Source: Megaustenia siamemsis
Taxonomy: Eukaryota > Mollusca > Gastropoda > Stylommatophora > Ariophantidae
NCBI GenBank assembly: GCA_032433765.1
Contig: JAVIAB010000051.1
Location: forward strand, 154,884,743-154,948,742
DNA length: 64,000 nt
Direction: 5' to 3'
Numbering within the stretch: position 1 is the first letter of the stretch; each line of letters opens with the position of its first letter. The notes beneath the pieces are model-generated. The model worked only from the letters and a program-made list of their open reading frames with translations. It was not told the origin of the DNA and ran no database searches. Positions 9,963 to 64,000 of this stretch are shown here, in pieces. The translations under genes were made by a program, and so were the position numbers.

Positions 9963-12346
9963 AGGTGGCTTTGTGCTGTACTGACGACACTGACCCATGG
10001 TAAAGAAAGGTGGCTTTGTGCTGTACTGACGACACTGACCCATTGTAAAGAAAGGTGGCTTTGTGCTGTACTGACGACACTGACCCACTGTAAAGAAAGG
10101 TGGCTTTGTGCTGTACTGACGACACTGACCCATGGTAAAGAAAGGTGGCTTTGTGCGATATTGACGACACTGACCCATGGTAAAGAAATGTGGCTTTGTG
10201 CTGTACTGACGACACTGACCCATGGTAAAGAAAGGTGGCTTTGTGCTGTACTGACGAAACTGATCCATCGTAAAGAAAGGTGACTTTGTGCGGTACTGAC
10301 GACACTGACCCATGGTAAAGAAAGATGGCTTTGTGCTGTACTGACGACACTGACCGATGGAAAAAGAAAGGTGGCTTTGTGCTGTAGACGACACTGACCC
10401 ATGGTAAAGAAATGTGGCTTTATGCTGTACTGACGACACTGACCGATGGAAAAATAAAGGTGGCTTTGTGCTGTACTGACGACACTGACTCATGGTAAAG
10501 AAAGGTGGCTTTGTGCGGTACTGACGACACTGACTCATGGTAAAGAAAGGTGGCTTTGTGCGGTACTGACGACACTGACCCATGGTAAAGAAAGGTGGCT
10601 TTGTGCGGTAATGACGACACTGACCCATGGTAAAGAAATGTGGCTTTGTGCTGTTCTGACGAAATTGACCGATGGAAAAAGAAATGTAGCTTTGTGCGGT
10701 ACTGATGACACTGACCCATGGTAAAGAAAGGTGGCTTTGTGCGATACTGACGACACTGACCCATGGTAAAGAAATGTGGCTTTGTGCGGTACTGACGACA
10801 CTGACCCATGGTAAAGAAAGGTGGCTTTGTGCGGTACTGACGACACTGACCCATGGTAAAGAAAGGTGGCTTTGTGCGGTACTGACGACACTGACCCATG
10901 GTAAAGAAAGGTGGCTTTGTGCGGTACTGACGACACTGACCCATGGTAAAGAAAGGTGGCTTTGTGCGGTACTGACGACACTGACCCATGGTAAAGAAAG
11001 ATGGCTTTGTGCTGTACTGACGACACTGACCGATGGAAAAAGAAAGGTGGCTTTGTGCTGTAGACGACACTGACCCATGGTAAAGAAATGTGGCTTTGTG
11101 CGGTACTGACGACACTGACCCATGGTAAAGAAAGGTGGCTTTGTGCGGTACTGACGACACTGACCCATGGTAAAGAAAGGTGGCTTTGTGCGGTACTGAC
11201 GACACTGACCCATGGTAAAGAAAGATGGCTTTGTGCTGTACTGACGACACTGACCGATGGAAAAAGAAAGGTGGCTTTGTGCTGTAGACGACACTGACCC
11301 ATGGTAAAGAAATGTGGCTTTATGCTGTACTGACGACACTGACCGATGGAAAAATAAAGGTGGCTTTGTGCTGTACTGACGACACTGACCCATGGTAAAG
11401 AAAGGTGGCTTTGTGCGGTACTGACGACATTGACCCATGGTAAAGAAAGGTGACTTTGTGCGGTACTGACGACACTGACCCATGGTAAAGAAAGGTGGCT
11501 TTGTGCGGTACTGACGACACTGACCCATTGTAAAGAAAGGTGGCTTTGTGCGGTACTGACGACACAGACCGATGGTAAAGAAATGTGGCTTTGTGCGGTA
11601 CTGACGACACTGACCCATGGTAAAGAAATGTGGCTTTGTGCTGTACTGACGACACTGACCCATGGTAAAGAAATGTGGCTTTGTGCTGTACTGACGACAC
11701 AGACCCATGGTAAAGAAAGGTGGCTTTGTGTGGTACTGACGACACTGACCCATGGTAAAGAAAGGTGGCTTTGTGCTGTACTGACGACACTGACCCATGG
11801 TAAAGAAATGTGGCTTTGTGCTGTACTGACGACACTGACCCAGGGTAAAGAAATGTGGCTTTGTGCTGTACTGACGACACAGACCCATGGTAAAGAAAGG
11901 TGGCTTTGTGCGATACTGAATACACTGACCCATGGTAAAGAAATGTGGCTTTGTGCTGTACTGACGACACAGACCCATGGTAAAGAAATGTGGCTTTGTG
12001 CGGTACTGACGACACTGACCCATGATAAACAAAGGTGGCTTTGTGCGGTACTGACGACACTGAACCATGGTAAAGAAAGGTGGCTTTGTGCTGTACTGAC
12101 GACACTGACCCATGGTAAAGAATGGTGGCTTTATGCGGTACTGACGACACTGACCCTTGTAAAGAACGGTGGCTTTGTGCGGTACTGACGACACTGACCC
12201 ATGGTAAAGAAATGTGGCTTTGTGCGATACTGACGACACTGACCCATGTTAAGAAAGGTGGCTTTGTGCGGTGCTGACGACACTGAACCATGATAAAGAA
12301 AGGTGGCTTTGTGCGGTACTGACGACACTGACCCGTGGTAAAGAAA
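9963..12346. repeat. 45-bp satellite with higher-order structure (NcoI-type CCATGG core)
   Basis: About 53 copies of a 45-bp unit containing GACGACACTGACCCATGG and AAGGTGGCTTTGTG. Because 45 is a multiple of three, frames stay open for hundreds of codons on both strands; the longest minus-strand frame covers most of the array. These frames are repeat artefacts, since all three phases are open and show no codon constraint. Variant units (GATGGAAAAAGAAAG, and a 3-bp-deleted GCTGTAGACGACAC) recur in the same order 900 bp apart. Confidence 0.97.
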
Positions 12347-13800
12347 AATGTGAACACAAACATCATCGTCATCATCGAGTGCCGTCTCCGCAACGAAGGT
12401 TGGCTGCCATGGAGCGCCATTCTGTTCTGTCTCTTGCTTTGATGGTGCAAGTTGTCATAGGCTGATTTTGTCCATCTTTTGATGTTACTCATCCATGTTA
12501 GTCTTGGTCTGCTTCTGCCTCTTTTACCTTGTATTTTCCCCTCCGGGATTACTTTTAGTAGGCTTTTGTGTCTTTTAACATGGCCCAAAAAAAGCATTTG
12601 TCTTGTTTTAATTGTGCTTAGTAGTTCTCTTTTCATTTTTAGTTGTTTTAAGACTTCATCGTTTGTTTTCTTTTTCTCCTATCCAATTCTATCTATTCTT
12701 GTATATATCCACATTTCAAAGGCTTCAATTCTCTGTTCTGGTTTCTTGTCTAATGTCCATGTTTCTGCACCATATAGGAATGTTGAGAAGACATAATATT
12801 TTGCTATTCTTAGTTTTAGCCCTCGTGTTATTTGTTTTGATGTTAGTATGTTCTTCATGACATTAAAATTACTTTTTGCCATTCCTATTCTTTTGTTTAT
12901 TTCAGTTGTACATTTTCCATCACTGGTTATAGTATGTCCAAGGTAGTTGTTCTGAACTGTCTCTAGGTCTATTCCTTCAATTTTGATATCCACTTGCGGG
13001 TTTTGAGTATTTTCTTTGTTTATGATCAAAGTTTTAGTCTTTTTGATATTCATATCTAGTCCATATTTTTTGCTTGTCATGTTTATTTCATTAAGTAATT
13101 GTTGTAGATCTTTAGGATTTTCTTCTGGTAGTACAGTATCGTCAGCATTTCTTAGGTTATTGATTATCTTTCCATTAATTTGTAGGCCTGGCATCTCTAT
13201 GATGTTTTTAAAGATTTTTTTAATTTCTTTGCTCAGTGTATAGATTGAACAAGCTTGGTGATAGGATGCATCCTTGTCTTACTCCTCTTTTTATATCAAT
13301 GGGTGTAGAGTTCTCTTTGTTATATTTTATTATTGCTGTTTGCTCCCAGTATAGATTACATATTAGTCGTATGTCCATGTCATCTAGATGTATCTGTTTC
13401 AGGCATTCTATAAGTTATTTGTTGTGTACTCCATCAAAATCTTTGGTGTAGTCTATGAAGCAGGCATATATTGGTTTGTTTACTTCTGTGTACTTTTCGA
13501 TTAATGTTCTCATGCAAAATATGGCTTCTTTTGTCCCGCTATTTTTCCTAAATCCAAATTGCTGCTCATCTAATTCAGTACTGATTTTATTCTGAATCCT
13601 TCCCTGTATAACTTTTAGCAAGATTTTTGTTACTTGGCTCATTAGGCTTATTGTTCTAAAGTCACTGCCTTCAACTGCAGCATTCTTTTTAGGCAATGCA
13701 ATGAAAGTTGATGTTTTTAGTTCATTTAGTATGTATCTAGTGTGGTATAGAACACAAACACCAAGTATAATATATTCCTCAAATTGGGGGGGGGGGCCTC
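12347..13800 (-). mobile_element. LINE family B, reverse transcriptase fragment
   Basis: Minus-strand frames read, from 5' to 3': RT N-terminal palm (13415-13800; RTISLMSQVTKILLKV, QQFGFRKNSGTKEAI, ACFIDYTKDFD), RT catalytic region and thumb (12679-13194; LRNADDTVL, ETWTLDKKPEQRIEAFEMW), and a tail (12355-12636; FLGHVKRHKSLLK, GKIQGKRGRSRPR). The motif C tyrosine is replaced by Asn (NADD for YADD), so this copy is probably dead. A (GAT)n-like 3' tail sits at 12360-12378 next to the 45-bp array. The element is 5' truncated at a G-run before 13800. Confidence 0.85.
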
Positions 13801-42069: not shown

Positions 42070-43420
42070 CTCATTCTTTTTCTTCTTTCCTCCCTCACCT
42101 GTCTTTCTTTCGGCGTCGAGTGAAGATATTATTGTGCTCTTCAGTTGGTCTTTTATGTTGTTATGTTTCCTAGTGTTTCTAATATTCCATCACTCCATCT
42201 GTTTCGTGGTCAGCCCTTGGGTCTGATGTTCTCGCAACGTTTATTAAAGCCTTCTTGTGCTGTGTTTTGATTTTTCTCTCTTATCATGTGGCCAACCCAT
42301 TTTATATGTTGTTTATTTATATATTCAATGACGGGATTTATTCCTAGGTTTTTTCTCAGCTCTTCACCTATGATCGTTTCTCTTTGACTGCTTCCTGCCA
42401 TGCGTCTAGCACATTTCATTTCGGTAATGGTTATTATTGGGAGCCGCGATAGCTCAGTGGTTAGTGAACTGGACTACAAAGGACAAGGGGTAGGGTTCGA
42501 TCCCAATCGACGGCTTCCGGGTTCACCCAGCCTTTAATGGGTACCGGATTTTTTTCTCGGAAAGTGAAGCAGCACTGGCGTAATACCGACCACATTACCC
42601 CAAAAATCATGTGCCGAAGGTCTGTAAAATTGATGGTCACTAACACCATATTCCCTATACGCCACTTGGCGTGACGGGGGTAAAAGAAGAAGAAAAAGAA
42701 TGATTATTATTGTTATTGTTCTTCCATCTAGGGTCAAGTCTGCCATTGGTAACATCACGTTTAATTGAAGATTGACTTGTGTGTAGCCTGCTGCTGTTCT
42801 GACTGTTCGGCTGCTGTTGATGTATACGTTTACATAGGTTGGTTAAATGTTGGCTAACTCCGTATGTCGATAGTATCACTCATAGTTATTCTCTGTTTAT
42901 TCGATCAAATATTTTTTCTTGGTCTATGAAAGCTATGTACAAGTTTTGATTATGTTCTGTAGTCTTTTCTGATGTGTGTGTTTAGAGTGAATAGTGCGTT
43001 GGCACTTCCTCTATTCTTTCGCAAGCCCATTTGAGAGTTTATTGCCTGTAGCTCTATAACTGACCTTAGTCTTTTCTCTGTCATTTAGGAATATAGTTTT
43101 CCTACGGACTGAGTAGGGAGATACCTTCATATTGGTTGCAGTCACTCTTGCTACCTTTCTTTTTCAACATTGGAACTATGATGGCATTTGTCAGCGATCT
43201 TGAGATTTCTGTTGTTGCCATGTTGCGTTGAATATTCTGTGCAGTTATGTAACTCCTGTTTCGCTTGTTGCTGATATTATTTCTACTGGTATATTGTCTA
43301 TCCCTGGTTCTTTATTTCTAGGTGCATGTTTTATGACTTCTTCGATTTCTTCTATTATGATGTTTGCTTCTGTATTCTTGTCTGGCTTTTGTTACTTTCT
43401 GAAGGTCAAGGTGATTTCAA
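42070..43420 (-). mobile_element. LINE family F, RT to 3' end, interrupted by a SINE
   Basis: The minus strand encodes QMGLRKNRGSANALFTLNT near 43000 (RT palm) and, after a gap, IEYINKQHIKWVGHMIREKN near 42300 (tail). The tail matches the copy at 44640-44990. SINE family 1 copy 3 (42440-42698) sits within it. Multiple stops. Confidence 0.75.
42440..42698 (+). mobile_element. SINE family 1, copy 3
   Basis: The same head, A/B boxes and body as copies 1 and 2. Flanked by AATGGTTATTATTG (42426-42439) and AATGATTATTATTG (42699-42712), a 14-bp target-site duplication with one difference. Confidence 0.92.
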
Positions 43421-43669
43421 CAGCCCTGGACATCCACCCACGATATGAAAACTCCTACGTCAAATAAAATATCCGGCCTACCAAAGACGGAGTGTGTCAG
43501 CCACGGCGCAGAGGAAAATCAGGACACGTACTCTTAAACAAGTACTGATCATATGACCAGTTAGCTCAACGTGTGTTGTGATGTTGTTATCCCTCCATCT
43601 TGAAACAGAACAATGAGTCAAGTTCACATGATCACAAAGGCTTGAACGAAGAAGAAAAAAAGAGCAGCA
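43421..43669. other. Unassigned host sequence
   Basis: No feature recognised. Confidence 0.4.
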
Positions 43670-43720
43670 GGAGAAGTAGTAGAAGTAGTAGTAGTAGTAG
43701 TAGTAGTAAGTAGTAGTAGT

Positions 43721-43756
<36 letters not shown>

Positions 43757-43831
43757 AAGTAGTAATAGTAGTAGTAGTAGTAAGTAGTAGTAGTAAGTAG
43801 TAGTAGTAAGTAGTAGTAGTAGTAGTAGTAA

Positions 43832-43870
<39 letters not shown>

Positions 43871-43880
43871 CAGTAGTAGT

Positions 43881-43936
<56 letters not shown>

Positions 43937-43941
43937 GTAGT

Positions 43942-43979
<38 letters not shown>

Positions 43980-44060
43980 AGTAGTAGTAGTAGTAGTAGT
44001 AGTAAGTAGTAGTAGTAGTAGTAAGTAGTAGTAGTAGTAGTAGTAAGTAGTAGTAGTAGT

Positions 44061-44110
<50 letters not shown>

Positions 44111-44157
44111 AGTAGTAGTAGTAGTAAGTAGTAGTAGTAAGTAGTAGTAGTAGTAGT

Positions 44158-44189
<32 letters not shown>

Positions 44190-44204
44190 AGTAGTAGTAG
44201 TAGT

Positions 44205-44236
<32 letters not shown>

Positions 44237-44350
44237 AGTAGTAGTAATAAGTAGTAGTAGTAGTAAGTAGTAGTAGTAGTAAGTAGTAGTAGTAGTAGTA
44301 AGTAGTAGTAGTAGTAAGTAGTAGTAGTAAGTAGTAGTAGTAGTAGTAGT

Positions 44351-44391
<41 letters not shown>

Positions 44392-44406
44392 AGTAGTAGT
44401 AGTAGT

Positions 44407-44441
<35 letters not shown>

Positions 44442-44493
44442 ATAGTAGTAGTATCAGCAGAATCAGCAGCAGTAGTAGTAGCGGTAGTAGTAG
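43670..44493. repeat. (TAG)n microsatellite punctuated by TAAGTAG
   Basis: More than 800 bp of TAG/AGT triplets. Roughly 25-30 single-base insertions (TAAGTAG) reset the phase. The long minus-strand open frame of Leu/Thr/Tyr runs results from these resets. Confidence 0.97.
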
Positions 44494-44639
44494 TTGTTTA
44501 ATGTGTAGCTGGTGGCATGGCCAATAGGTCTCCGAAATAATTCTTCCCATATCTGTTGCACTATTTTGGCTGTTAATACTGGCCGTCATGGGCCCTAGAT
44601 ACAAGAACAATAAGCAAAATAACCGCTACTGAGATTAAA

Positions 44640-44990
44640 TGTGTCAGACGAATGACATGAAACAGTGTGAGAGATAAGATCAGAAAAGAAAAAGTTAGAA
44701 AAAAGCTAGGAATAGCCACCGCCATAGAATATATAAAGAAACAACAGATAAAATGGTTTGGCCACGTGACACGGCGGAAAGATCAAAACACAACACAACG
44801 ATCCCTCAATAAACGTTGCGAGAATACCAGACCCAAAGGTTGACCACGAACAAGATGGATCGACGGAATACTAGAAGCACTATGAAACATAACAGCAGCA
44901 GAGGCGAACAGAAGACGTCGACGTTGACGACGAGGACAGCAGTCAATTCAGGCTTTCAAAATCTCGTTACATTTGTTCGTGAAAGGTGAT
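44640..44990 (+). mobile_element. LINE family F, 3' end
   Basis: Plus-strand frame: IEYIKKQQIKWFGHVTRRKD, NKRCENTRPKG, RTRWIDGILEAL with stops. Same tail as the minus-strand copy near 42210-42419. Confidence 0.8.
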
Positions 44991-46308: not shown

Positions 46309-48909
46309 TATTGTACTACAACAAGCATCATTGTGTACTAAAACAAGCATCAATGTGTACTTTAACTAGCATCATTGTGTACTACAACAAGCATCATTGT
46401 GTACTACAACTAGCATCATTGCGTACTAGCACAAGCATCAATGTGTACTTTAACTAGCATCATTGTGTACTACAACAAGCATCATTGTGTACTACAACTA
46501 GCATCATTGCGTACTACAAGAAGCATCATTGAGTACTACAACTAGCATCATTGTGTACTACAAGAAGCATCATTGAGTACTACAACTAGCATCATCGTGT
46601 ACTACAAGAAGCATCATTGAGTACTACAAGAAGCATCATTGAGTACTACAACTAGCATCATTGTGTACTACAAGAAGCATCATTGAGTACTACAACTAGC
46701 ATCATTGTGTACTACAAGAAGCATCATTGTGTACTACAAGAAGCATCATTGAGTACTACAACTAGCATCATTGTGTACTACAAGAAGCATCATTGAGTAG
46801 TACAACAAGCATCATTGAGTATTACAAGAAGCATTATTGTGTACTACAAGAAGCATCATTGTGTACTACAATAAGCATTATTGTGTACTACAACTAGCAT
46901 CATTGTATACTACAATAAGCATTATTGTGTACTACAAGAAGCATCATTGAGTACTACAACAAGCAGCATTGAGTACTACAAGAAGCATCATTGAGTACTA
47001 CAACTAGCATCATTGTGTACTACAAGAAGCATCATTGAGTACTACAAATAGCATCATTGTGTACTACAACTAGCATCATCGTGTACTACAAGAAGCATCA
47101 TTGTGTACTACAACTAGCATCATTGTGTACTACAATAAGCATTATTGTGTACTACAATAAGCATTATTGTGTACTACAATAAGCATTATTGTGTACTACA
47201 ACTAGCATCATTGTGTACTACAATAAGCATTATTGAGTACTACAATAAGCATCATTGAGTACTACAACGAGCATCATTGTGTACTACAACGAGCATCATT
47301 GTGTACTACAATAAGCATCATTGAGTACTACAATAAGCATCATTGAGTACTACAATAAGCATCATTGTATACTACAATAAGCATCATTGTGTACAACAAT
47401 AAGCATCATTGTGTACTACAACGAGCATCATTGTGTACTACAATAAGAATTATTGTGTACTACAATAAGCATCATTGAGTACTACAATAAGAATTATTGT
47501 GTACTACAATAAGCATCATTGTGTACTACAATAAGAATTATTGTATATTACAATAAGCATCATTGAGTACTACAATAAGCATCATTGTGTACTACAATAA
47601 GCATCATTGTGTACAACAATAAGCATCATTGTGTACTACAACGAGCATCATTGTGTACTACAATAAGCATCATTGTGTACTACAATAAGCATCATTGTGC
47701 ACTACAATAAGCATTATTGTGTACTACAATAAGCATCATTGTGTACTACAATAAGCATCATTGTGTACTACAATAAGCATCATTGTGTACTACAATAAGC
47801 ATCATTGAGTACTACAATAAGCATCATTGTGTACTACAATAAGCATTATTGTGTACTACAATAAGCATCATTGTGTACTACAATAAGCATCATTGTGTAC
47901 TACAATAAGCATCATTGTGTACTACAATAAGCATTATTGTGTACTACAATAAGCATCATTGTGTACTACAATAAGCATCATTGTGTACTACAATAAGCAT
48001 CATTGTGTACTACAATAAGCATTATTGTGTACTACAATAAGCATCATTGAGTACTACAATAAGCATCATTGTGTACTACAATAAGCATCATTGTGTACTA
48101 CAATAAGCATCATTGTGTACTACAATAAGAATCATTGAGTACTACAATAAGCATCATTGAGTACTACAATAAGCATTATTGTGTGCTACAATAAGCATCA
48201 TTGTGTACTACAATAAGCATCATTGTGTACTACAATAAGCATTATTGAGTATTACAACTAGCATCATTGTGTACTACAACGAGCATCATTGTGTACTACA
48301 ATAAGCATCATTGAGTACTGCAATGAGCATCATTGAGTACTACAATAAGCATAATTTAGCACTACAATAAGCATCATTGTGTACTACAATAAGTATCATT
48401 GTGTACTACAACTAGCATCATCGTGTACTACAACTAGCATCATTGAGTACTACAATAAGCATCATTGAGTACTACAATAAGCATCATTGAGTACTACAAT
48501 AAGCATCATTGAGTACTACAATAAGCATCATCGTGTACTACAACTAGCATCATCGTGTACTACTAGAAGCATCATTGTGTACTACAAAAAGCATCATTGT
48601 GTACTACAATAAGCATCATTGAGTATTACAACTAGCATCATCGTGTACTATAAGAAGCGTCATCGTGTACTACAACTAGCATCATCGTGTACTACAAGAA
48701 GCATCATTGTGTATTACAACTAGCATCATCGTGTACTACAAGAAGCATCATTGTGTATTACAACTAGCATCATCGTGTACTATAAGAAGCGTCATCGTGT
48801 ACTACAACTAGCATCATCGTGTACTACAACTAGCATCATCGTGTACTACAAGAAGCATCATCGTGTACTACAAGAAGCGTCATCGTGTACTACAACTAGC
48901 ATCATCGTG
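46309..48909. repeat. 22-bp satellite (TGTAC-type)
   Basis: About 118 units of CATCATTGTGTACTACAATA plus AG. CTAG, GAAG and CGAG variants cluster at both ends, and AATAAG units dominate the centre. The last unit stops after ATCATCGTG at 48909, exactly where the Polinton begins. Confidence 0.97.
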
Positions 48910-49500
48910 AGTAGTAGGAGGCGCACGTTATGCTCTCGCTTTTTTAGTTGACCAAAGAGTAGGGTATACCCTACGAAGTCCAGTACCCTATGAGTACAGG
49001 AGTTATATAGAGACTACGGCAAGCCGCGGCAAGCTGCGGCAAGCTGCGCCAAGCCAGAGTGATGCAATGATATATATGTATAGTGCATGAAGGGTTGGTG
49101 GTTGAGGGATAATTACTGACTCATGAGTGATGGACATCAGTTTTTCCCGCCAACGTGACTTCCAATAGGAACAAGTGTGTGTGTATGTTGTCCGGCTATA
49201 GACCACGCCCACTCCGGAAGTGAAACTACCATATTAGGGAGTAGTGATACGTTAGTTATTTCATAGTTATGGTGAGTATATATACATATAATAGTAATAA
49301 GTTAATAGTTATTATATCTACGTGGACGTAAATGGGCCCCGTATTTAAGATATGGACCGTAAGTAGGTATATATACATACATATATATTGGTAAATCTTG
49401 CTGGCGGTATTAACGAACAGTCATTTTCTCCTACCGTGGCAGCTCAATATCTCCCACCGTTGCCGCTCTCGCGTGAGTTTATTGATTATTGTCTCCAGCG
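48910..49500. repeat. Polinton left terminal inverted repeat
   Basis: Positions 49287-49500 are the exact reverse complement of 63787-64000, with no mismatch or gap in 214 bp by my reading. The outer 377 bp (48910-49286) is inferred to be part of the repeat because its partner lies beyond the window. It holds a small internal repeat (GCGGCAAGCT, 49023-49050). Confidence 0.9.
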
Positions 49501-49635
49501 AGCGCGGAACGGCAACAAGTGTAAACTAATGAGCGATCTGTCTCGGTACGCGGTTAGCAGACAATAAGACATAGGTTAATAACAATACTTATGGTCTCGA
49601 TACGCGTATAGTGTTATCAAATAAGGCTCGTAAGT

Positions 49636-49642
49636 TATAAAA
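49636..49642 (+). promoter_or_regulatory. TATA-like element before the ATPase gene
   Basis: TATAAAA lies 36 bp before the ATPase start codon, between the inverted repeat and the gene. The short distance leaves room for only a brief leader. Tentative. Confidence 0.35.
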
Positions 49643-49677
49643 TAACGACATACATCTACCTCGCGACAGTCGTAGGT

Positions 49678-50291
49678 ATGGATCCAACCTGGAATCATCC
49701 GTTTACGGCGCTAGTCGCAGGACCGACGGGATGCGGAAAAAGTGTGTTTGTTAGGCGCTTTATCGATCACGTGTCAGAAATGATCAGACCCGCTCCGGAG
49801 GAAATAATCTACTGTTACGGCGAGTGGCAATCGATGTACGATACGATGAAGGGTGTTCAGTTTAACGAAGGGCTACCCGACATGGACCAATGGCGAGGAG
49901 ATAGGACACGTCTGTTGGTCATAGACGATCTGATGAACGAAACCGACGATAGGGTCACGAAACTATTTACCAAGGGAAGTCATCATAGAAATATAAGCGT
50001 CGTGTATATAGTACAGAATCTCTTTAACAAAAACAAGGAACAGCGGACGATAAGTCTCAACAGTCATTACATAGTTATGTTTAAAAACCCGAGAGACGGG
50101 TCTCAGATTACGAATCTGGCCAAACAAATGTACCCGGGCGCGTGTCGTACGTGCAAGAAAGTTTTAAAGACGCGACATCGGCTCCACACGGGTATTTATT
50201 AATTGACCTTCGGCAAGAGACGCCGGATCATCTAAGGCTGCGCACAAATATTTTTCCTAAAGAACAGCAGGTAGTCTACATCCCAAAGTAA
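49678..50291 (+). CDS. Packaging ATPase (FtsK/HerA superfamily), one frameshift
   Basis: Predicted DNA-packaging ATPase of the Polinton/adenovirus-like lineage, which would pump the genome into the capsid. Walker A is at residues 15-22 (GPTGCGKS), and Walker B near 79-84 (LLVIDD) is followed by an acidic/Asn sensor stretch (LMNETDD). About 204 codons, the usual family length. The frame shifts near 50137 after MYPG: the first frame ends early at 50202, while the conserved C-terminal segment (SAPHGYLLIDL, RTNIFPKEQQVVYIP) continues in the next frame to a stop at 50291. One more G in the G-run would restore it. First gene after the inverted repeat; the next gene starts 6 bp downstream. Confidence 0.93.
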
Positions 50292-51086: not shown

Positions 51087-52063
51087 ATAAGATTTTAAGA
51101 AGCCGTTACTACGATCCGAATCGACGGGTGCCTACGGGGGTGTGGGTGGTTTACAGCGTAGTACAAAACTAAGCTCTGCAAAAATTAAAGAATGGCTGAG
51201 TCTACAGGATGCTTATACGCTACACAAACCCGTTGTTAGAAAATTTAAGAGACGACCCATCATCGTGGGTGGTATGAATCAGCAGTTCCAGGCTGATCTG
51301 ATCGATCTGAGACAATTAAGAAGATACAACGACGCGTTCTCGTATCTCGTTACGTGTATCGACGTTTTTGCGAAGTATGCTTGGGCAGTTCCGATACGGT
51401 CGAAAACCGCAAAAAATCTAGTGGAGGCCGTGAGCGAAATATTGCCGAGCGCAAACCGATACATCTTCAAACGGACAAAGGATCCGAATTCGTCAACAAA
51501 ACTTTCCTAAAGTTTCTCAAGGAAAATGGAGTCCATTTCTTCACTACGGAGAATGAGGATATAAAGGCAGCGATCGTAGAACGATTTAACCGAACGTTAA
51601 AAGAGAAAATGTGGAAATTTTTTACGAAAACGAACAAATTGAGATATGTGGATGCGTTACCCGCCTTACTCAGAAACTACAATAATTCGTATCACAGGAG
51701 CATTAAAATGGCGCCGGTCCACGTAAATTCGGCCAATCAAGAACAAGTCTGGAACATGTTGTATAATAAACTGTCGGGGAGAGACAATAGACAGTCAGTG
51801 GCGATCAATAACCGTTATAAAGAAGGTGATCGAGTTAGGATAGCTCAAGCCAGAGCTAATTTCAAAAAGGGGTATACACCATCGTGGACGGAAGAACTGT
51901 TTACAATCAGTCGTGTAAACAAAAACACTAACCGGTAACCTACGTTGTGAAAGATGATTCTGGTGAGAGTTGAAAGGGTCGTTTTATACAGAAGAGCTTC
52001 AGAAAGTCGGGAAAACGGGTGTATCGAATAGTCTTAGAGAGAGGAAAGTTGATCAGTACTTAG
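51071..52063 (+). CDS. Retroviral-type integrase (rve, DDE), multiple frameshifts
   Basis: Integrates the linear element into host DNA. It begins MAKRVDKILRSRYYDP. A frame change near 51135 (G-run) leads into GGLQRSTKLSSAKIKEWLSL and QDAYTLHKPV. The catalytic core shows D in QADLIDL, D in HLQTDKGSEF after a second frame change near 51440, and E in AAIVERFNRTLKEKMW about 35 residues later, so the D-D-E triad is complete. The C-terminal region has ALLRNYNNSYHRSIKMAP and an SH3/chromo-like end (ELKGSFYTEELQKV, then RVYRIVLERGK) in further shifted frames. At least four frame changes in all. I chose the ATG at 51071 because the family N-terminus begins there; the end is uncertain by about 40 bp. 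Confidence 0.92.
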
Positions 52064-53286: not shown

Positions 53287-53768
53287 TGGTGAGACACACG
53301 CCGCTTCATCGAAATGCTAAGTTATACGAAGAGTGTTGCTTTAATCAAGCCGGCCACGGCTCCCGGTATTTGTCGGAGGTAGAAGTCAGCGAGGGCGCGG
53401 TATCGGAAGTTTTTTCGGAGGCATCGGAAGAGCAATTTTACCGTGGCTAAAAACAGGAGGTAAGGCATTACTCAGAGAAGGTGTCGGCACGGGGACTACA
53501 AGTCGCGCAAGACGCATTGGCGGGAAGAAACATTGGAGAGTCGTTTAAAGAAAGAGCTAAGGAATCCGGTCAGCGTTTAATTCAGGGAGCCATCAGTCAT
53601 GGCTGGGGGCGATACAGGCCAACAAACGGAAGCGGTAGAAGAAGGAAAAGACGAGCAGCTCCACCTGGGATACCGGCAAGAAGAATAAAAACGACGAAAC
53701 GACGCGATCACTCTCATTCCGCGTCCAAGAAGTCTAAGAGGACAAACTATTCGGACATATTCGGTTAA
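53286..53768 (+). CDS. Gly-rich/basic virion protein candidate (pVI-like position), frameshifted
   Basis: The ATG at 53286 overlaps the preceding stop. The N-terminal part ends FNQAGHGS, the next frame has GRGIGSFFGGIGRAILPWLK, and the third frame has DALAGRNIGESFKERAKESG and a strongly basic tail (GSGRRRKRRAAPPGIPARR, SKKSKRTNYSDIFG) to a stop at 53768. This N-terminal glycine-rich amphipathic region plus basic tail, immediately before the major capsid gene, is characteristic of Polintons. Comparison with adenovirus pVI/core proteins is inference. Frame changes near 53370 (C-run) and 53490 (G-run). Confidence 0.6.
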
Positions 53769-53773
53769 GCGAT

Positions 53774-55085
53774 ATGGCGTTAGTGCATCCCAAGTCTTGC
53801 GAGTGTTTCCATTCTGGACTAGATTTGTTTAGCGTTCCACCGACTCAGACATCTCTTGATTCTGCCCAGTTTGTAGAAGTTTCCCCCTTGGCGTCTCTGG
53901 CATCGGGGGCCCCTATAGAATTTTCCATCAGCGGAAATTCGGACGAATACATCGATTTTTCCAACACGTATCTGCATATGAGAGCAAAAATACGCTGTCC
54001 AACGGTGACAATATACATACCAAATGATGTTGAAGTTGCGCCTGTGAATTATTTTCTGCACAGTCTAATCTCGCAAGTCGACGTATCTCTCAACGATACT
54101 TTGATTTCAGCTTCTGAAAACACCTACCCTTTTCGAGCATACCTAGAAGCCACTCTCAACCATAGCAAGGAATCTAAGAAAAGTTATCTCACGAGCGCGC
54201 TCTACTACACCAATACTCCCAAACACGCGGATGACACCCAAGGTGACTCCAATACGGGTCTTAAAACTCGTCGAAATCTGGCCCGAGGTAGCCATGAGCT
54301 GGATATGGTAGGGCGACTTCACTCTGATATTTTGCTCAGGAGCGTTACATGCTAAACAGGGTTGACGTGAAAATTAAGTTGACCCCCTCAAAGGACGTAT
54401 TTAACATCATAGCTCACGACAAAACTATCGGTTATAAAAGTGTCATCACCTACGCCGCCCTATTGGTGAGGAAAGCCTCAGTTAATCCGGCCATTTCGCT
54501 GGCTCACGAAAAGGCTCTCTTACGAGGCAATGCGCGATACCCCATGAAGAGAGTTATGATTAAAACATTTGCCATTCCTAAAGGCATGTTATCTCATTCC
54601 CAAGACAACCTTTTTCTGACTCAAACACCAACGCGACTAGTCCTCGGCTTACTGGACTCGGCTGCATTTAATGGAAGTTACGACACCAACCCCTTCAATT
54701 TTAAAAACTTTGGCCTTACTTACTTAAACGTCACGGTCGCCGGTCATAATATTTGGGGTAAACCTCTATCTACCGAATTGACCGCGGTCAGTACGCTCGC
54801 GCCTACTTCAAGTCCATGCTGGCGTTGGGTCTTGTGGGAACAGACGCTGGTAACGGAATAGATTATAACGACTTCAAGAACGCCTACACTCTTTTTGCAT
54901 TCGATCTCAGCCCTAGTCTTTTGAACGCCGAACAATTTGAGCTGGCAAAATCAGGGCCCGTCGCCATCGAGCTCAAATTTGCGACGATCACGCCTAATCC
55001 TATACAGGTCCTAGTTTACGCAGAACTGGATTCCGTGCTGGAGATCTCTAAAACGAGACAGATTCTTACAGATTACACAGCGTAA
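53774..55085 (+). CDS. Major capsid protein (double jelly-roll, hexon-like), two frameshifts
   Basis: Forms the capsid shell. The N-terminus GLDLFSVPPTQTSLDSAQFV and the block GAPIEFSISGNSDEYIDFSN are the hallmarks of the Polinton major capsid (often annotated in animal genomes as F54H12.2-like). Continuation in frame 2 begins near RYMLNRVDVKIKLTPSKD, and frame 3 near MLALGLVGTDAGNGIDY, ending LDSVLEISKTRQIL with a stop at 55083-55085. About 437 codons, a normal length. Frame changes near 54335 (T-run) and 54785 (TT); one base in each restores continuity. It is followed 11 bp later by the protease gene. Confidence 0.92.
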
Positions 55086-55096
55086 ACACTTCGACA

Positions 55097-55592
55097 ATGA
55101 ATACGAGAGATATTCTCAAAGTACTTATGTCTGACATTTTTGTGAGACGGTGTTCCATTGTTGGCGTAGTGGCTCGCAATCGGTTACCTCGCTATATCGA
55201 TCCAACTAAAACAGCAGCCTTCGTTATCAATACCGACCCTAGTTGGAGACCGGGCTCTCACTGGGTCGCCCTCTACTACAACGCTATGTGGGCAGTTTGA
55301 GTATTTCGACAGTTTCGGGTTTTCTCCCAGACATACCGAGATCATCGATTTTATCGAGCGGAATTCGAACAGACCTCTCATCTACAACTCGCGTCAGTTA
55401 CAAGATCTTGTTAGTAACGCGTGTGGACTGTACTCTGTGTATTTTCTACTGATTAAAACACGAGGAGGATCAATGCAAAGGGTCTTAATGCCGTTTACCT
55501 CATCCACCAGACAACACATAAACGATCGAATCGTGTATCGACTACTAGCACCGAAGCTTATGGCGCAAAATTTAAAATTTCTAGTGCAATGA
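55097..55592 (+). CDS. Adenain-type cysteine protease, one frameshift
   Basis: Maturation protease of the adenovirus/Polinton C5 family, expected to process virion precursors. Starts MNTRDILKVLMSD. The catalytic His is in GSHWVALYYN, the acidic residue in EYFDSFGF, the Gln in NSRQLQDL and the Cys in SNACGLYSVYFLL, in the canonical order. The frame changes near 55292 between His and Asp (GGG run); the second frame runs to a stop at 55590-55592. About 165 codons. Catalytic residues are all intact despite the break. Confidence 0.92.
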
Positions 55593-55684
55593 CGTCAGTG
55601 GCTAAAAATATCGCAGACAAGTCTGGACACGAATTTTAGTGTTTAAAAATCCGGACTAAACCGGATCTATAATCTGACCTATGC

Positions 55685-56899: not shown

Positions 56900-59800
56900 C
56901 TAGATACCTAACGGAAAAGTCGTCACATTGTCGTTGTGCACACGGCGTTTGATGTAGAAATAAGAGAGAGAATTTCTGTGCTGTGTATATGTATAGACAC
57001 TCGATTTATATCGTTTAAAACCAACATTTTTCCCTCCCTGCGCCTGTTGTGTCTTGAGAACCTTCATAAATATATCTTTGTCTAGTTTATTGTGATGTTT
57101 GCTAAGCCCCTTAGTACTAGTTTTTGAGTAATCTCCAAAACAGTGGTATGTTTTACTACATAACGACACCATCCCATCCCCTTCGTACTCTAACTTAAAT
57201 AAACCGGGGTACGTTTATGGTACAATTTTGTTTTTTCGCAGTCTCGACAATCTTCCTTAAATTTACCTTTACTCCTAACAAACTCCTCCCGATGAACGCT
57301 ACAGGTCTCTGAGGGGAACCACTGATCGTACTCGTTATAAAAAGTTTCGAGTAAAGGCGGTCTAACGGCGGCAGCTAAACTAGGTTTACTTAACGCCAAA
57401 TACAGACTGTCAGTGTCCATTTCACACAACTGAAAGTATGATCTCTCTACGAACCGGTCTAAAAAATCGTAATAAAATTGCAACATCCGTAGCTTGGCGT
57501 ATTGATATACAAAGTAGCCGATTTGTAGCGGAAGGTCCCACCTCGTCGTCTTTTTTAACATTTCCACCTCGAATATATTCCCTACTCCTAAATCTGTCAT
57601 ATGTTTAAATAGGGGGTCGTTAACGAGCTTGGAAGCGGACTCACCCTCGCAGTACGCGACGTTCGAGTGTTTCGCTTTATCGGTGAGAGTTTTTCCGTAC
57701 GCCGAATTCCCTAACAACTTCATGGTCTCCCCCGTAATGGACTGCGTCTCATCTACATCCCCTTTTCGTCTGGCGTCGGATACGGTGTCCCCAAATTGTT
57801 TGAAACAACTAACAGGGTGGTATTCGATCACCTGGTAGATGTGGTTACCTCTAGACCGTGATCCAAATACCATTTTAATAAGGGGGTGGCCAAAAGAATT
57901 TTCTTCCCGATATAACTACCTATCAGGGTACGTCTAGGGGTCGTCAATAATTTATTTTTCACGGCGTATTCCTTCATAAGCTCTCCTATATCGTCTCTAC
58001 ACACGTCTACGTTTTTAAATATGGGTGTCATTTCGCTAAAATATTCCTTGAGAGAGTCGGGGACATGAATATCGCATTCTACCAGACCAAACAGCGTTTC
58101 GTCTTTAACAGCTTTCAAGATCTGCGCGACGGTTAGTGGTAATTTTTTCACGGGCATACGATGGTTTTGCTCTGGGGAGGGCTTGTTTAAGAAACGGAAT
58201 AATTGTGCTGTCGGTTTTCTTTAGCTCTTGCCACTCACATTCCCACATCTCAACCACGTCAACTCCAACGTCATTGGTTAAATATTCGCGAATTTCCCGG
58301 GTCTTGTCGTATAGCTCGGACAAGGGTTTTTTGTTTATAGGGTTAACACCTTTGTGTTTTTCAGTGAGGTGACAGATATGCCGTGCGTCAGACAACCATG
58401 ATACTGCCAGACTTTATTATTAGCGGATAGGTTACTCTTTTGACAGAAGCCATCCACTCTAATCCTACGAGGAGTCCCAGTGGTACCTCACCCCGTTGTA
58501 TTGAGTTCGCAACTCAATGTTGTGTTTGTGAGCTACCCACGTTAACCACTCTCTACTCTGCTGATCGTAATAATTAACTTTACGTTGTCTAAACCCGTCC
58601 TCAACTTTTCGTATAATTGGAAAGTCAGTGGGCATTTTCTGCATCAATGCCCAGAGATACAGAGCGTTTGCGTCGTAGCCTTTAAGACTCTCTACTACGT
58701 TTTCAGGATTACCTCTGATTCGAGTCTCGTCCTTCTCGTGGTGGCGATGAAAGATTATGCTCGGGCCACCCACTATATTATCTCTAAGCGTTTTATGAAG
58801 CTCTGCCTCGCGTTTACCGCATAACGAAAAGACTACGTTTTTAGGTATGGTGTTGAAGAGGTATCTTAACGTCACACCGGGACTGAAATGGCGTCCTTAA
58901 ACATATCTACACCTAAGCCCGCGTAAAATTCGATCTGTTTCTCTAATGCGAGTAGGAAGGGCCCGACATCCTTGTTGTTATACCAAACAAGAAGATCTCT
59001 GAGAGTGGACATGTTATTGTCCGCCCATATCTTGTTACAATACTCGTACTCTTCGTTTGAAATATTACAGTTTTTAAGCGTCGAAAAGAAGGCCTCATGA
59101 GGGGGGAGAGAGGTTTCGTCTAACTTTTTTAGATCGGTAATATACTCGTAACAAAATACGCCTTTGGTCTCTTTAATCTTGTACGCCGCCAAGTATTTAC
59201 TATAAGAGAACCCCGGGGCGAGATAATTTATAATATCTAAGAACTTTAGTCGACTGGTGGAGATGCACATAAAATTATTATTGCGCTTAACGATAAACTT
59301 GAAGGGCGAGGTCACCCCTTTTTTAGCTTGTTTTGTTTCGGCTTCTCTCTTCTTCTTCTTCTTCTTCTTCTTCTTTTCTCTTCATCATCTTCTTCTTCAT
59401 CGTCATCATTTTTCAATTCTTCTTCATCGTCAGCATTTTTCAATTCTTCTTCATCGTCATCATTTTTCAATTCTTCTTCAACGTCATCTTCTTCATCTTC
59501 ATCATCTTCTTCGTTCGCTTTTTCTACTTTGTTCGCCGCAGCTACGAAATGTCTTATTAAATAGGGTTGATAACGTTTAAGTCATACTTTCCAGAGTTGA
59601 ACCCTATAACGGGGAGCTCTTTCAAGTATGACTCGAGTTTCCCTATGAGGTCACTACAGTCACCCCTGTCTCTTAAACTGTCAAAAACCTGTTTGAAACT
59701 GCCGCGTAAGATTATATATGCCCGTTTCGCTAATGTCTCTAGATAATCTATCGTTTTACTCACTAGTTTTTGAGAATCACCTTCGCTCACAAAACATACC

Positions 59801-61794
59801 GGTTTCTCATAACCAGGAATATTACTGGCTACGGCACAAGACATTGGAATATGCCTGGCTACATATTCGGTGACATTACTAATGTTTCCATCTGTCGTCG
59901 GTACATTACTAAAGTAACATTCATAATCGTACGTCGCTCTGTAGGATACACGTAATTATTAGGAACTTCTATACCCCTATTAGCTATCGTTTCGAGTATA
60001 CCCTCTTTGTTCCTATAAACTCCTCCGATATACTTGTCTTTTCGCTTATCCCCGGTACATGTCTTCTCGTGTTTATCCATACGCCAACATTCTTTCCACA
60101 ATTTTCCACATTTAGGACAAGAAAAAGCCCGGGCCGCCTTATCTATATCCTCTATATACATAAAATGTTCCTCGTAAAATAGAACTCGTAAGGTGTCGCT
60201 AAAAGTCGTACTACCTCTTAGCATTGGGGACAGGGCTTGTTCTTTGTCAAAAGCGAAGACGTCCACGTTAATACCGAAACACTTTTCTAGAGAGGGAATC
60301 TGAGCTAACGTTACACCCGGAACTCGTCGTCTATATCTAACCCCTGATGGTCTTGCCACTGTTTCAGGAGATCGCTGGTGGGTCTGTGTAAATTACTGAG
60401 ATTAGCACCCATAAATAACGCTACACATCTAAAGAAACAGAGATTATCAGTATAGGCTGATTCCTTGTGTTAGTTTGTAATGTATAAATGAATTTATTGT
60501 TTGTAATGTGTTGTGGCAGGTCGGTGGTTAGACACCCGATAGGATATTCTACGAAATTATAGAAATAGAAAGAAGTGCTGGGAAGGGTTTCGACGCTATA
60601 TTTAGTGCTCGGTCTATTATGATTTGCGTGGTTTAAGGGGTCGCTATCTTGTAGTTGTGTGAGGAACCTATCAAAATCTGCTCTGTTATTGATAACCATC
60701 GGAGTTGAAAGAATTAAACTATTATTGAAACTACTATGGAAAAACCGAAGGTCATTGTTTTCTTTATTCCTCAGGATGAAATTGTGAGAATAATTTATTT
60801 TAAATCTACGTTTTTGGTTATTAAATATGGGATTTAGGATGTTTGCCCAGTTTGGCAGTAGCTGTGAATTTGGTTTATGAAACACCGTGTGGACTGACAG
60901 ATGCCTGTTATTATTACTATGTGACCTTATTGCAGGCCAGTTGTCGACATAGACCTGTCTAACATCTGATGGTAAAACTAGCTAAAACTGTCTAATTCTA
61001 GATCCGTGCGCGCCTTCTTGCTGTGTTGACGCTCTATCGATTGTTCATTATTCCGCTTCCTCTTAATTGTTGGCTCAGCTCTGGACTTTGAACAGGTCGT
61101 CGGTATCGAAGCTGATGAGGTGGCGGAGGAGGTTGACGGTGTTGAGGAGGAGGAGGTTGACACTGCTGTTGTGGAGGTGGTTGATACTGATGAGGTTGAT
61201 GGTCTTGTCGAGGATGTTGAGCTTGTACTTGTTGATATCGGTAGTTGGTGTTTATTTTTAATATGTGTTCTTAGATTGTCCTGTCTGTTAAATTCGCATA
61301 CACATATAGGACACTGGTATGTCTGTTTATTGTGAACAGTGTCTACATGTCGATCTAGATGGTTTGGGTAGTAAATATTTTCCCGCAGTCTTTACACGAG
61401 TATTTAGTATTAATGTGTACAGATGATATGTGCTCTGTACTGTCTCTAGGCTGGTCACCCCCACGAGTGTTATCTACTCGGGGTTTCTTTCTAGAGTGTT
61501 CTTCATCCCCGGTCTCTGCAACATTGTTGTCTGTTGCAGAGAATACTGTCGGGGCCCTTGATGTAGCCGGTGCTGGTGCCGGTGATATAGATGCATATGC
61601 TGCATGTTTCTTCGCCACATGGTTTGTAAGATTGTGGATCTTGTAAAGATGCAGCCGCATATAGGACACGGATATCTCTGTTGGCCGTGCGCACTATCTA
61701 CGTGTCTGGCTAGATCGTGTCGCCGTGTAAAGCTTTTCCCACACGTTTCACACACGTGGCGTGGTCTGCTTACAAGTTCGTTACGTGAGGCCAT
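56900..61794 (-). CDS. Protein-primed DNA polymerase B with N-terminal C2H2 fingers, multiple frameshifts
   Basis: The replicative polymerase, about 1,630 codons. Domains on minus strand: four C2H2 fingers (61230-61750; CETCGKSFTRRHDLARH, CPICGC, CKDCGKIF, CPICVCEFNRQDNLRTH); a Ser/Thr-rich linker with a basic patch (IKRKRNNEQ); a conserved N-terminal block (VDNWPAIRSH, RFFHSSFNNSL, DNLCFFRCVALF); a C2HC knuckle (CPKCGKLWKECWRMDKHEKTC region, about 60100); Exo I YDYECYF (about 59940); Exo II GFNSGKYDLNVI (about 59590); an acidic insertion (59340-59530); FKFIVKRNNNFMCISTSRLK; Exo III WYNNKDVGPF; motif A KGYDANALYLWAL (about 58660); motif B KLLGNSAYGKT (about 57710); motif C EMDTDSLYLAL (about 57410); stop at 56900. 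About 13 frame changes, yet no catalytic residue is lost. Start chosen at 61794 before finger 1. Confidence 0.9.
59340..59530 (-). repeat. GAA/GAT repeat encoding an acidic-then-basic insertion in PolB
   Basis: The minus strand has repeated GATGAAGAAGAATTGAAAAA units (three near copies of about 30 bp), followed by a (GAA)n/(AAG)n run. It codes for DDEEELKN-type repeats and then a Lys/Arg run, between Exo II and the conserved FKFIVKRNNN block. The triplet run is also where the frame changes. Confidence 0.85.
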
Positions 61795-62173
61795 CTGTCA
61801 ACGAGATAAAACCACTCATTTAGTGTGCGTACAAAAATACATTGAAATAGTATACATATATAACATGCGCTCGCACACGCACGCGCGCACACACACATAC
61901 ACACATACACGCGCACACAAACGCATACATGCACGCACACATACTATATGTTACTAGACAGTTATTAGTTATCGACCTCTTCGTTAGCACACATAACCTC
62001 ACCGGTTATCATGTCTTACATCATCCTCGTACAACTTAACACTCATCCGTCGCTCTTACTATCATAAAGCTATAGCCAGATATGACTCATTTCTCCGCTT
62101 TCGCTTGTTTATTATAACTGTCTTTCAGCGTCTACCACCGCTATATCAGACCGTTTCAAATCTTTCTTTTCTT

Positions 62174-62887: not shown

Positions 62888-63407
62888 ATGGATTCGAAAA
62901 TGACTAATTATGATTGTGAAATATGTGTGGCTACAATTTCGAACGAATTTGTGGTCTTAGCTGTTGACATTATCCACACTTACGATAACACTAAAAAGAA
63001 GCTTTCCACGTTTTATAAATCAATGGCTAAACAGGTCTATACGGTATCAGGGAGATATGACTCGTTATTCGCTGGTATAACTCTGGGAGTCGGGGATAAG
63101 GATATTTACGCCTCGTTTGCGACCATTGTGGTTTATATGGTTTCAGATGGAATTTTAAACTTTGGGCGCCTCGTGATTATTTATACGCTGGCTTATCGGT
63201 TAATTAAGAACCATGTCAAAGACTTTTACGATTCTGATACAGATATATCTTCTCTGGAAAGAGCTTCGCTTTCTTGCCGGGATGTTTATCGGTGGATTAT
63301 TCGGAGACTGGGTTGTAAAAAACGGAGGTTGGAAAAAGTTCCTAGACTTCTCTAACGAAAAGGATACGACGATGTGGACTCTATTTCGTAACAGCTTTGC
63401 TCTGTGA
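62888..63407 (+). CDS. Bcl-2 family protein (viral-type apoptosis regulator), one frameshift
   Basis: About 173 codons. The first frame from 62888 runs through YASFATIVVYMV and a BH1 motif SDGILNFGRLVII (63143-63180), equivalent to the F/S-D-G-x-N-W-G-R-I/L-V signature of Bcl-2 proteins. A shift near 63225-63265 leads to LWKELRFLAGMFIGGLFG and the BH2 motif DWVVKNGGWKKFLDF (63306-63350), matching W-I-x-x-N-G-G-W-x-x-F. BH1-to-BH2 spacing is about 50-55 residues, close to that of BCL2/BCL-XL. A BH3-like segment may lie around MAKQVYTVSGRYDSLFA but is unconvincing, and no C-terminal membrane anchor is visible. By analogy with adenovirus E1B-19K and herpesvirus Bcl-2 proteins it should inhibit host apoptosis; pro- or anti-apoptotic activity cannot be told from sequence. 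It lies within the element, close to the right inverted repeat. Confidence 0.85.
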
Positions 63408-63461: not shown

Positions 63462-63467
63462 AATAAA
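63462..63467 (+). promoter_or_regulatory. Polyadenylation signal of the Bcl-2-like gene
   Basis: AATAAA 55 bp after the stop codon, with a second overlapping-range AATAAA at 63476. Confidence 0.6.
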
Positions 63468-63786: not shown

Positions 63787-64000
63787 CGCTGGAGACAATA
63801 ATCAATAAACTCACGCGAGAGCGGCAACGGTGGGAGATATTGAGCTGCCACGGTAGGAGAAAATGACTGTTCGTTAATACCGCCAGCAAGATTTACCAAT
63901 ATATATGTATGTATATATACCTACTTACGGTCCATATCTTAAATACGGGGCCCATTTACGTCCACGTAGATATAATAACTATTAACTTATTACTATTATA
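63787..64000. repeat. Polinton right terminal inverted repeat, inner 214 bp
   Basis: Exact reverse complement of 49287-49500. The inner boundary is sharp: CGCTGGAG here pairs with CTCCAGCG at 49493-49500, and identity stops on both sides just beyond. The outer part is cut off by the window end. Confidence 0.97.

Follow-up and report, generated by a model that had tools for sequence, protein, structure and literature searches.

An intronless, probably anti-apoptotic Bcl-2 gene carried by Polintons of the gastropod Megaustenia siamemsis, with a cyclin beside it in two of four groups

Polintons may be transposons, or they may be viruses able to move from cell to cell and from host to host. The question is raised by the right end of a 64,000-nucleotide stretch of the Megaustenia siamemsis genome (hereafter the window), where a first-pass annotation, made from the letters alone, had placed a Bcl-2 family gene inside a Polinton. 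Judging from sequence comparisons, we put at roughly three in four the probability that this Polinton carries an intronless, viral-type, anti-apoptotic Bcl-2 gene, placed in an accessory region and transcribed divergently from DNA polymerase B (PolB), which is joined by a cyclin in two further Polinton-linked groups, F2 and F3. The Bcl-2 and cyclin genes would give the question of transposon versus virus handles that can be assayed.

The end of the window was confirmed as a Polinton, with inverted repeats and with regions for an ATPase, an integrase, a protease, a probable capsid protein and a presumed PolB (Table 1). The arms of the inverted repeat at 49287-49500 and 63787-64000 are complementary at 214 of 214 nucleotides, and the right arm is incomplete because a 100-N assembly gap (64001-64100), directly after the window, cuts it. 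Reverse-complemented right ends of many other copies align from about 48897-48953, those of others only from further in, and the exact start of the left arm (about 48910) was picked by the end motif. A protein-database search with the ATPase gave 1767 relatives (E ≤ 0.001), the best of them 77% identical. The integrase profile rve scores above cut-off (4.6e-11) in L080, an F2 element, and below it in the broken window frames. Two frames of the capsid region were scanned and gave no Pfam match; the region, which we take to be that of the major capsid protein, was labelled from its features and gene order, and window positions 53963-55285 are about 94% identical to the stretch 3' of an F3 Bcl-2 gene (L068). 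The protease frame of locus L071 matches Peptidase_C5 (9.8e-8, above cut-off), and the window frame at 55170-55592, taken alone, has no Pfam match. By tblastx, the PolB region aligns (window about 57746-61811) with a frame of locus L079 that runs unbroken for 1269 aa; Pfam found no polymerase in the region, so that the label rests on recognisable polymerase motifs, and PolB is presumably what the region encodes. The left arm of the window copy begins with the Maverick end motif. At the right end, CTCCTACTACT closes the element in 12 of 48 examined loci and is followed there by differing flanks; it is absent from the fetched piece in the other 36, the window locus included. Ends of the form (AGT)2//(ACT)2 are known from vertebrate Mavericks, together with inverted repeats of a size similar to those found here (main text of PMC8097293), and the ends of the window family fit this motif.

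Table 1. Features of the Polinton at the right end of the window, and the cyclin gene of an F2 element (window positions, except where a locus is named)
Feature	Position	Strand	Remark
Left terminal inverted repeat	48910..49500	+	starts AGTAGTAGG; aligned to right ends of other copies
Packaging ATPase (A32/IVa2-like)	49612..50202	+	Pfam Adeno_IVa2 7.3e-6, above cut-off
Retrovirus-like integrase, two overlapping frames	51091..51938	+	Pfam rve 9.7e-4 and 9.7e-5, both below cut-off
Probable major capsid protein region, three overlapping frames	53738..55085	+	presumed from features and gene order
Adenain-type protease region	55020..55594	+	95% nucleotide identity to L071
DNA polymerase B region (presumed), several broken frames	56900..60392	-	tblastx to L079 frame
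C2H2 zinc-finger start of PolB-side gene	61474..61797	-	Pfam zf-C2H2 1.4e-6
Bcl-2 frame A	62888..63355	+	155 aa, BH1-bearing; Pfam Bcl-2 1.2e-5, below cut-off
BH1 signature SDGILNFGRLV	63143..63175	+	frame A
Bcl-2 frame B	63204..63407	+	67 aa, BH2-bearing, natural C-terminus
BH2 signature DWVVKNGGWKKF	63306..63341	+	frame B
Two poly(A) signals AATAAA	63462..63481	+	at 63462 and 63476
Right terminal inverted repeat, visible part	63787..64000	+	100% complementary to 49287-49500
Cyclin E/A-like gene, F2 element	L080:26-835	+	270-aa frame

The Bcl-2 copy at 62888-63407 is frame-broken. BH1 and BH2 lie where the first-pass annotation had seen them, in two overlapping frames, A and B, and the stretch read in frame B shares its frame with BH1 in intact copies. 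Frame A alone reaches 26.2 bits against a curated Pfam Bcl-2 cut-off of 31.4, and frame B alone has no match in the Pfam scan. In phmmer searches of PDB sequences frame A matched Mcl-1 (E 0.0027), and frame B matched BCL2L10 (E 0.022) and BFL-1 (E 0.091). A single-sequence structure prediction of frame A alone gave an uninformative model (pLDDT 35.5, pTM 0.22). A 5.8-billion-protein database offered 19 candidates for frame A, of which none reached E 1, and 1836 for an alignment of 14 Polinton Bcl-2 frames, of which none reached E 1e-3; IMG/VR yielded no relatives for frame A, the PolB piece, the capsid piece or the ATPase alignment. The poly(A) signal that had been credited to the gene is present twice downstream of it, and two AATAAA also stand 3' of the stop codon in the intact copies L003, L004, L006, L007 and L008.

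Many further copies of this window-type gene (group F1) occur in the 2.59-Gb host genome (155 contigs), where frame A gave at least 150 scored matches among 1618 candidates. We examined 48 loci (L001-L048), picked along the match list with a preference for unusual entries and hence a non-random sample. Twenty-five have an intact frame of 172-175 aa in which BH1 is followed by BH2 in one protein, six match over almost the whole gene but in a frame of a different length, and 17, the window copy among them, are broken. The four intact copies tested all exceed the Pfam cut-off (PF00452, 35.5-36.4 bits, E about 1e-8, against 31.4) and have the two motifs in one frame, which puts the Bcl-2 match beyond chance; for one intact copy, the closest among the best 60 PDB matches were Mcl-1 (2.5e-7) and BFL-1 (6.6e-7). 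The profile search proposed in the first-pass annotation thus bears out a Bcl-2 identity in the intact copies, and the broken frame A of the window matches below the cut-off. The window gene is thus confirmed as a genuine Bcl-2 gene that lies within a Polinton; this copy of it is damaged and most likely makes no full-length Bcl-2. Because 25 of the 48 copies are intact, the frame break is a property of the window copy and of some others, not of the gene family.

A programmed frameshift was considered and set aside as unneeded, since intact copies require none. Close to the 3' end of the Bcl-2 gene, separate loci share frame ends that are identical or much alike: they recur in L015-L017, in L010-L011 and in L023, L035, L039 and L048; these may be damaged copies that multiplied, repeated slips or mis-sequenced short runs.

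The surroundings of the gene are constant. Inverted-repeat sequence lies downstream of Bcl-2 in all 48 loci, mostly beginning about 900 nucleotides from the ATG and at most about 1030; the 3' and the 5' flank are each found in 48 of 48; a zinc-finger region lies upstream in 46 (the exceptions are L019 and L048); and the further PolB side is present in 37 loci, out of 40 for which enough DNA was fetched to show it. These constant flanks, together with the linkage to the repeat and the zinc finger, show Bcl-2 to be a fixed part of the window Polinton family. It had been suggested that the same gene be sought in other Polintons between PolB and the inverted repeat, and in all 48 examined copies it occupies the same place inside the element.

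Codon models were fitted to the 25 intact F1 copies and excluded the other 23, in which the 172-175-aa frame is not intact. Mean pairwise dN/dS is 0.49 (bootstrap 0.30-0.88, 298 pairs), and it declines with distance, the closest pairs having 0.79 and the most distant 0.42. One model gave an omega of 0.449 (lnL -1716.34 versus -1727.26 at omega 1; 2 x delta lnL 21.8) and another, with kappa, an omega of 0.513 (lnL -1710.18 versus -1717.58 at omega 1 and kappa 2; 2 x delta lnL 14.8). The F1 Bcl-2 gene is under purifying selection: neutrality is rejected, with dN/dS at 0.45-0.51, and a value near 0.5 is moderate constraint. Seven further pairs (three deep F1 pairs and four within F2-F4) span 0.39 to 0.96, the highest value being that of one deep pair. 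The first-pass annotation had taken the gene to imply that selection acts on infected cells, in keeping with a viral life cycle. A dN/dS well under 1 agrees with this as far as selection goes, but the level does not follow from it, as selection on a transposon cycle would give the same picture.

A genome search with the Pfam Bcl-2 profile returned at least 150 scored matches of 1061 candidates, all of the scored ones above cut-off. Five loci (L049, L050, L061, L063 and L074) we infer to be host genes from a BH2 splice donor and their single occurrence in the list; in all five, which are the host-like loci that reach BH2, GT stands right after the BH2 tryptophan codon, whereas one copy each of F1, F2, F3 and F4 reads through BH2 without a splice donor. 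The claim that the Polinton gene has neither intron nor anchor holds for F1; the F2 group, however, has a hydrophobic C-terminal tail. The best 17-residue hydropathy within the last 40 residues is 0.19 for F1, 2.51 for F2 and 0.62 for F3, and a C-terminal membrane anchor, common but not universal in the Bcl-2 family, is lacking in F1, and the F2 value would suit one. The L-x-x-x-G-D core of BH3 occurs in killers and in many survivors, not in all Bcl-2 members; it is needed by killers of the BAX/BAK type and is not required of viral pro-survival members. Host-like L049 (102.8 bits) has SLGDEFE as its BH3 core, and none could be read by eye in F1 or F2. As host-like L051 has no clear core either, a missing BH3 core is not special to viruses. 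The many copies form a natural series in which viral-type and host Bcl-2 can be compared for their differences in BH3, intron and anchor.

F2, F3 and F4 are three more repeated Bcl-2 groups without the BH2 intron, and one frame of each scores 55.1, 47.5 and 44.5 bits, respectively, with the Pfam Bcl-2 profile (cut-off 31.4). Neither these groups nor the cyclin figured in the first-pass annotation. F2, with a 192-aa frame in most loci, consists of L052, ten loci that are 97-99.6% identical to L052 over about 3.2-3.3 kb, and the diverged L064. Of the flanks of F2, which come from two different copies, one holds the PolB-side frame of 1269 aa; the other has genes for a cyclin and an ATPase, besides an integrase that carries a chromodomain (L080, Chromo 1.8e-8 after rve); the Pfam scan reported no chromodomain in the broken integrase frames of the window. 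F3 adjoins PolB-side sequence and, in L068, also capsid-like sequence, and F4 sits between PolB-side sequence and an adenain-type protease. Identity between groups is about 22-38% by BLASTP, lowest between F1 and F3 and about 33-37% between F2 and F3, and a motif near Y-(N/D)-S-D after BH1 is common to F1-F4. Among its best 60 PDB matches, F2 is closest to Bcl-xL. F2 and F3 are sister groups in two trees (support 98/97 and 97/98), one tree places host-like L050 with F1-F3, though weakly supported (71/81), and one capture for F1-F4 was not separated from several (AU p 0.188).

The near-identical F2 loci are L052-L060, L062 and L067, and their near-identity at eleven places suggests recent spread. 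The gene order is Bcl-2, cyclin, ATPase in F2; in F1 the inverted repeat comes after Bcl-2. At L064:1934-3312, an RNase H frame (Pfam 4.8e-11) and retroelement-like frames adjoin the diverged F2 Bcl-2. Further Bcl-2-like frames, of 151-202 aa and 21-25% identical to F3, lie at other places, among them C47:56752199/56756381, C103:32271258/32275287 and C51:89713414/89716749; three of these sets are inverted pairs with about 3-4 kb between their members, and they may mark a further element that has a Bcl-2 gene close to each end.

The gene downstream of Bcl-2 in F2 matches Pfam Cyclin_N at 6.3e-27 (94.2 bits against a cut-off of 23). It is nearest to cyclin E1 (6.8e-22) and then to cyclin A2, and viral cyclin structures score far lower (1.2e-7 and 2.5e-7). 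A genome search for the cyclin gave 66 matches among 86 scored candidates, none of the 66 near the window. We took the 40 Bcl-2 matches with E no higher than 1.1e-13, combined adjacent ones into single loci, assigned loci with at least 50% identity to the F3 query to F3 and the rest (34-38%) to F2, and compared them with all 66 cyclin matches; a count with 39 cyclin matches agreed. At 12 of 13 F2 loci (the 13 include the damaged C91:95526402, classed by identity alone) and at 16 of 23 F3 loci, Bcl-2 is followed within 6 kb by a cyclin on its own strand, leaving one F2 and seven F3 loci without it. The first cyclin type is represented by 10 copies that are 99-100% identical and free of stops. 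The second, 41-42% identical to the F2 cyclin, has eight intact copies, every one of which follows an F3 Bcl-2 at a distance of 1.2-1.3 kb. Because Bcl-2 is paired with a downstream cyclin E/A-like gene in two groups that share about 36% identity in Bcl-2 and about 42% in the cyclin, the pair may be an old, selected cassette. We lean slightly towards the view that the elements are small integrating animal viruses of the DNA tumour type, or were so until recently, and that Bcl-2 and cyclin would form such a 'survive and divide' cassette, independent of the gammaherpesviruses.

The Bcl-2 protein is most likely pro-survival, to judge by BH1 and BH2, the lack of a killer-type BH3 core, the likeness to Mcl-1 and BFL-1 or to Bcl-xL, the purifying selection and the company of virion-type genes. 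Such a protein would bind the BH3 helices of host killer proteins, or BAX/BAK-like proteins themselves, and could keep the cell alive during replication, integration or particle formation by the element. The cyclin of F2 and F3 might drive the cell into a DNA-synthesis state, and Bcl-2 might blunt the death signal that this drive provokes. Cyclin-type drive combined with the blunting of death is known from small DNA tumour viruses and gammaherpesviruses. A selected Bcl-2 in four Polinton-linked groups, and a cyclin in two, would point to selection inside living, possibly infected, cells.

A Bcl-2 that protected germ cells from the DNA damage of integration and copying would raise germline copy number without any infection. 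The very high copy number in one genome, with its 150 or more scored matches, and the near-identical F2 copies at eleven places are what such a transposon role would lead one to expect. We nevertheless consider it unlikely, for the element keeps a packaging ATPase, an adenain-type protease and a probable capsid gene, none of which a pure transposon needs, and the pairing with a cyclin looks viral. The protein might instead have the opposite activity, a pro-apoptotic one of the BAX/BAK type, and kill the cell to help release particles. BH1 and BH2 are common to both kinds of Bcl-2, and the hydrophobic tail of F2 is in keeping with a killer, but with no L-x-x-x-G-D core seen in F1 or F2, and with pro-survival proteins making up all of the best 60 PDB matches for F1 and for F2, this reading is most improbable. 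Closeness to Mcl-1 or Bcl-xL is itself weak evidence on the direction of function, because pro-survival members abound among the Bcl-2 proteins of the PDB and the comparison covers the best 60 matches.

Bcl-2 might also be a neutral passenger of an element that is still active. We give this still less credence than a killer protein: omega is 0.45-0.51 and omega = 1 is rejected by both codon models, 25 of the 48 examined copies are intact, and four divergent groups have been kept beside Polinton genes, against which stand the 23 copies without an intact frame and a dN/dS that is only moderate. It is scarcely credible, finally, that the gene is an exon of a host Bcl-2 that lies outside a wrongly mapped element, or that it is an artefact of assembly. 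The window copy does abut an assembly gap, as such an origin would have it, but the same gene occupies the same place in the element at 48 of 48 loci, with the repeat 3' of it in all and the zinc finger 5' of it in 46, and it has no intron where the five host-like loci have their splice donor; the host exon that the first-pass annotation had named as its own possible undoing is thus not what is found. A pro-survival Bcl-2 carried by the Polinton itself is the reading that we prefer.

The Bcl-2 proteins of adenoviruses (E1B-19K), gammaherpesviruses and poxviruses (vBcl-2) are small and intronless, keep BH1 and BH2, and often have an eroded BH3 and no anchor. The Polinton proteins resemble them in these features. 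In gammaherpesviruses a viral cyclin and a vBcl-2 occur in one virus, as cyclin and Bcl-2 occur in one element in the F2 and F3 Polintons. The Polinton cyclin, unlike that of gammaherpesviruses, is nearest to cyclins E1 and A2, with viral structures scoring far lower, and independent acquisition is likely. Among integrating elements, Starrett and co-workers are said to have reported Bcl2 homologs in adintoviruses in 2021.

Anti-apoptotic homologs in adintoviruses are already in print: most mammal-associated adintovirus species are described as having anti-apoptotic homologs and/or candidate oncogenes (main text of PMC11071296, in which neither 'Bcl' nor 'cyclin' appears). PolB, a C-terminal chromodomain of the integrase (here in F2), a packaging ATPase and, in some, zinc-finger genes are common to adintoviruses as described there and to the elements studied here; unlike those adintoviruses, the present host genome has four divergent Bcl-2 groups, two of them with a cyclin. 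Mavericks of vertebrates have accessory regions, and 'Bcl' and 'cyclin' are again both absent from the main text concerned (PMC8097293); in a term search, Bcl was unmentioned in the searched text of PMC8363768 and PMC11071308. Adintovirus matches are listed for a virus fraction of pearl oysters (part of PMC11067908), and the Burro giant LTR retrotransposons of planarians have a BCL2-like motif (part of PMC6431247). Burro is thus, like the elements described here, a mobile element with such a motif, but there the motif belongs to a retroelement polyprotein and not to a DNA virus. A limited literature search, covering the listed titles and starts of abstracts and therefore weak, found no report that joins a Polinton with a cyclin, and the pairing of several Bcl-2 groups with a cyclin might tentatively be counted as the new part.

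Two other parts of the window gave minor observations. A 298-nucleotide inverted repeat (42138-42435 and 44618-44915) has arms that are 78% complementary and 2182 nucleotides apart, and a 333-aa frame inside the pair has no Pfam match; 42138-44915 is possibly another DNA transposon. On the minus strand, 9945-12678 holds long overlapping frames that have only marginal Pfam matches (DUF4813 at 2e-6 in one).
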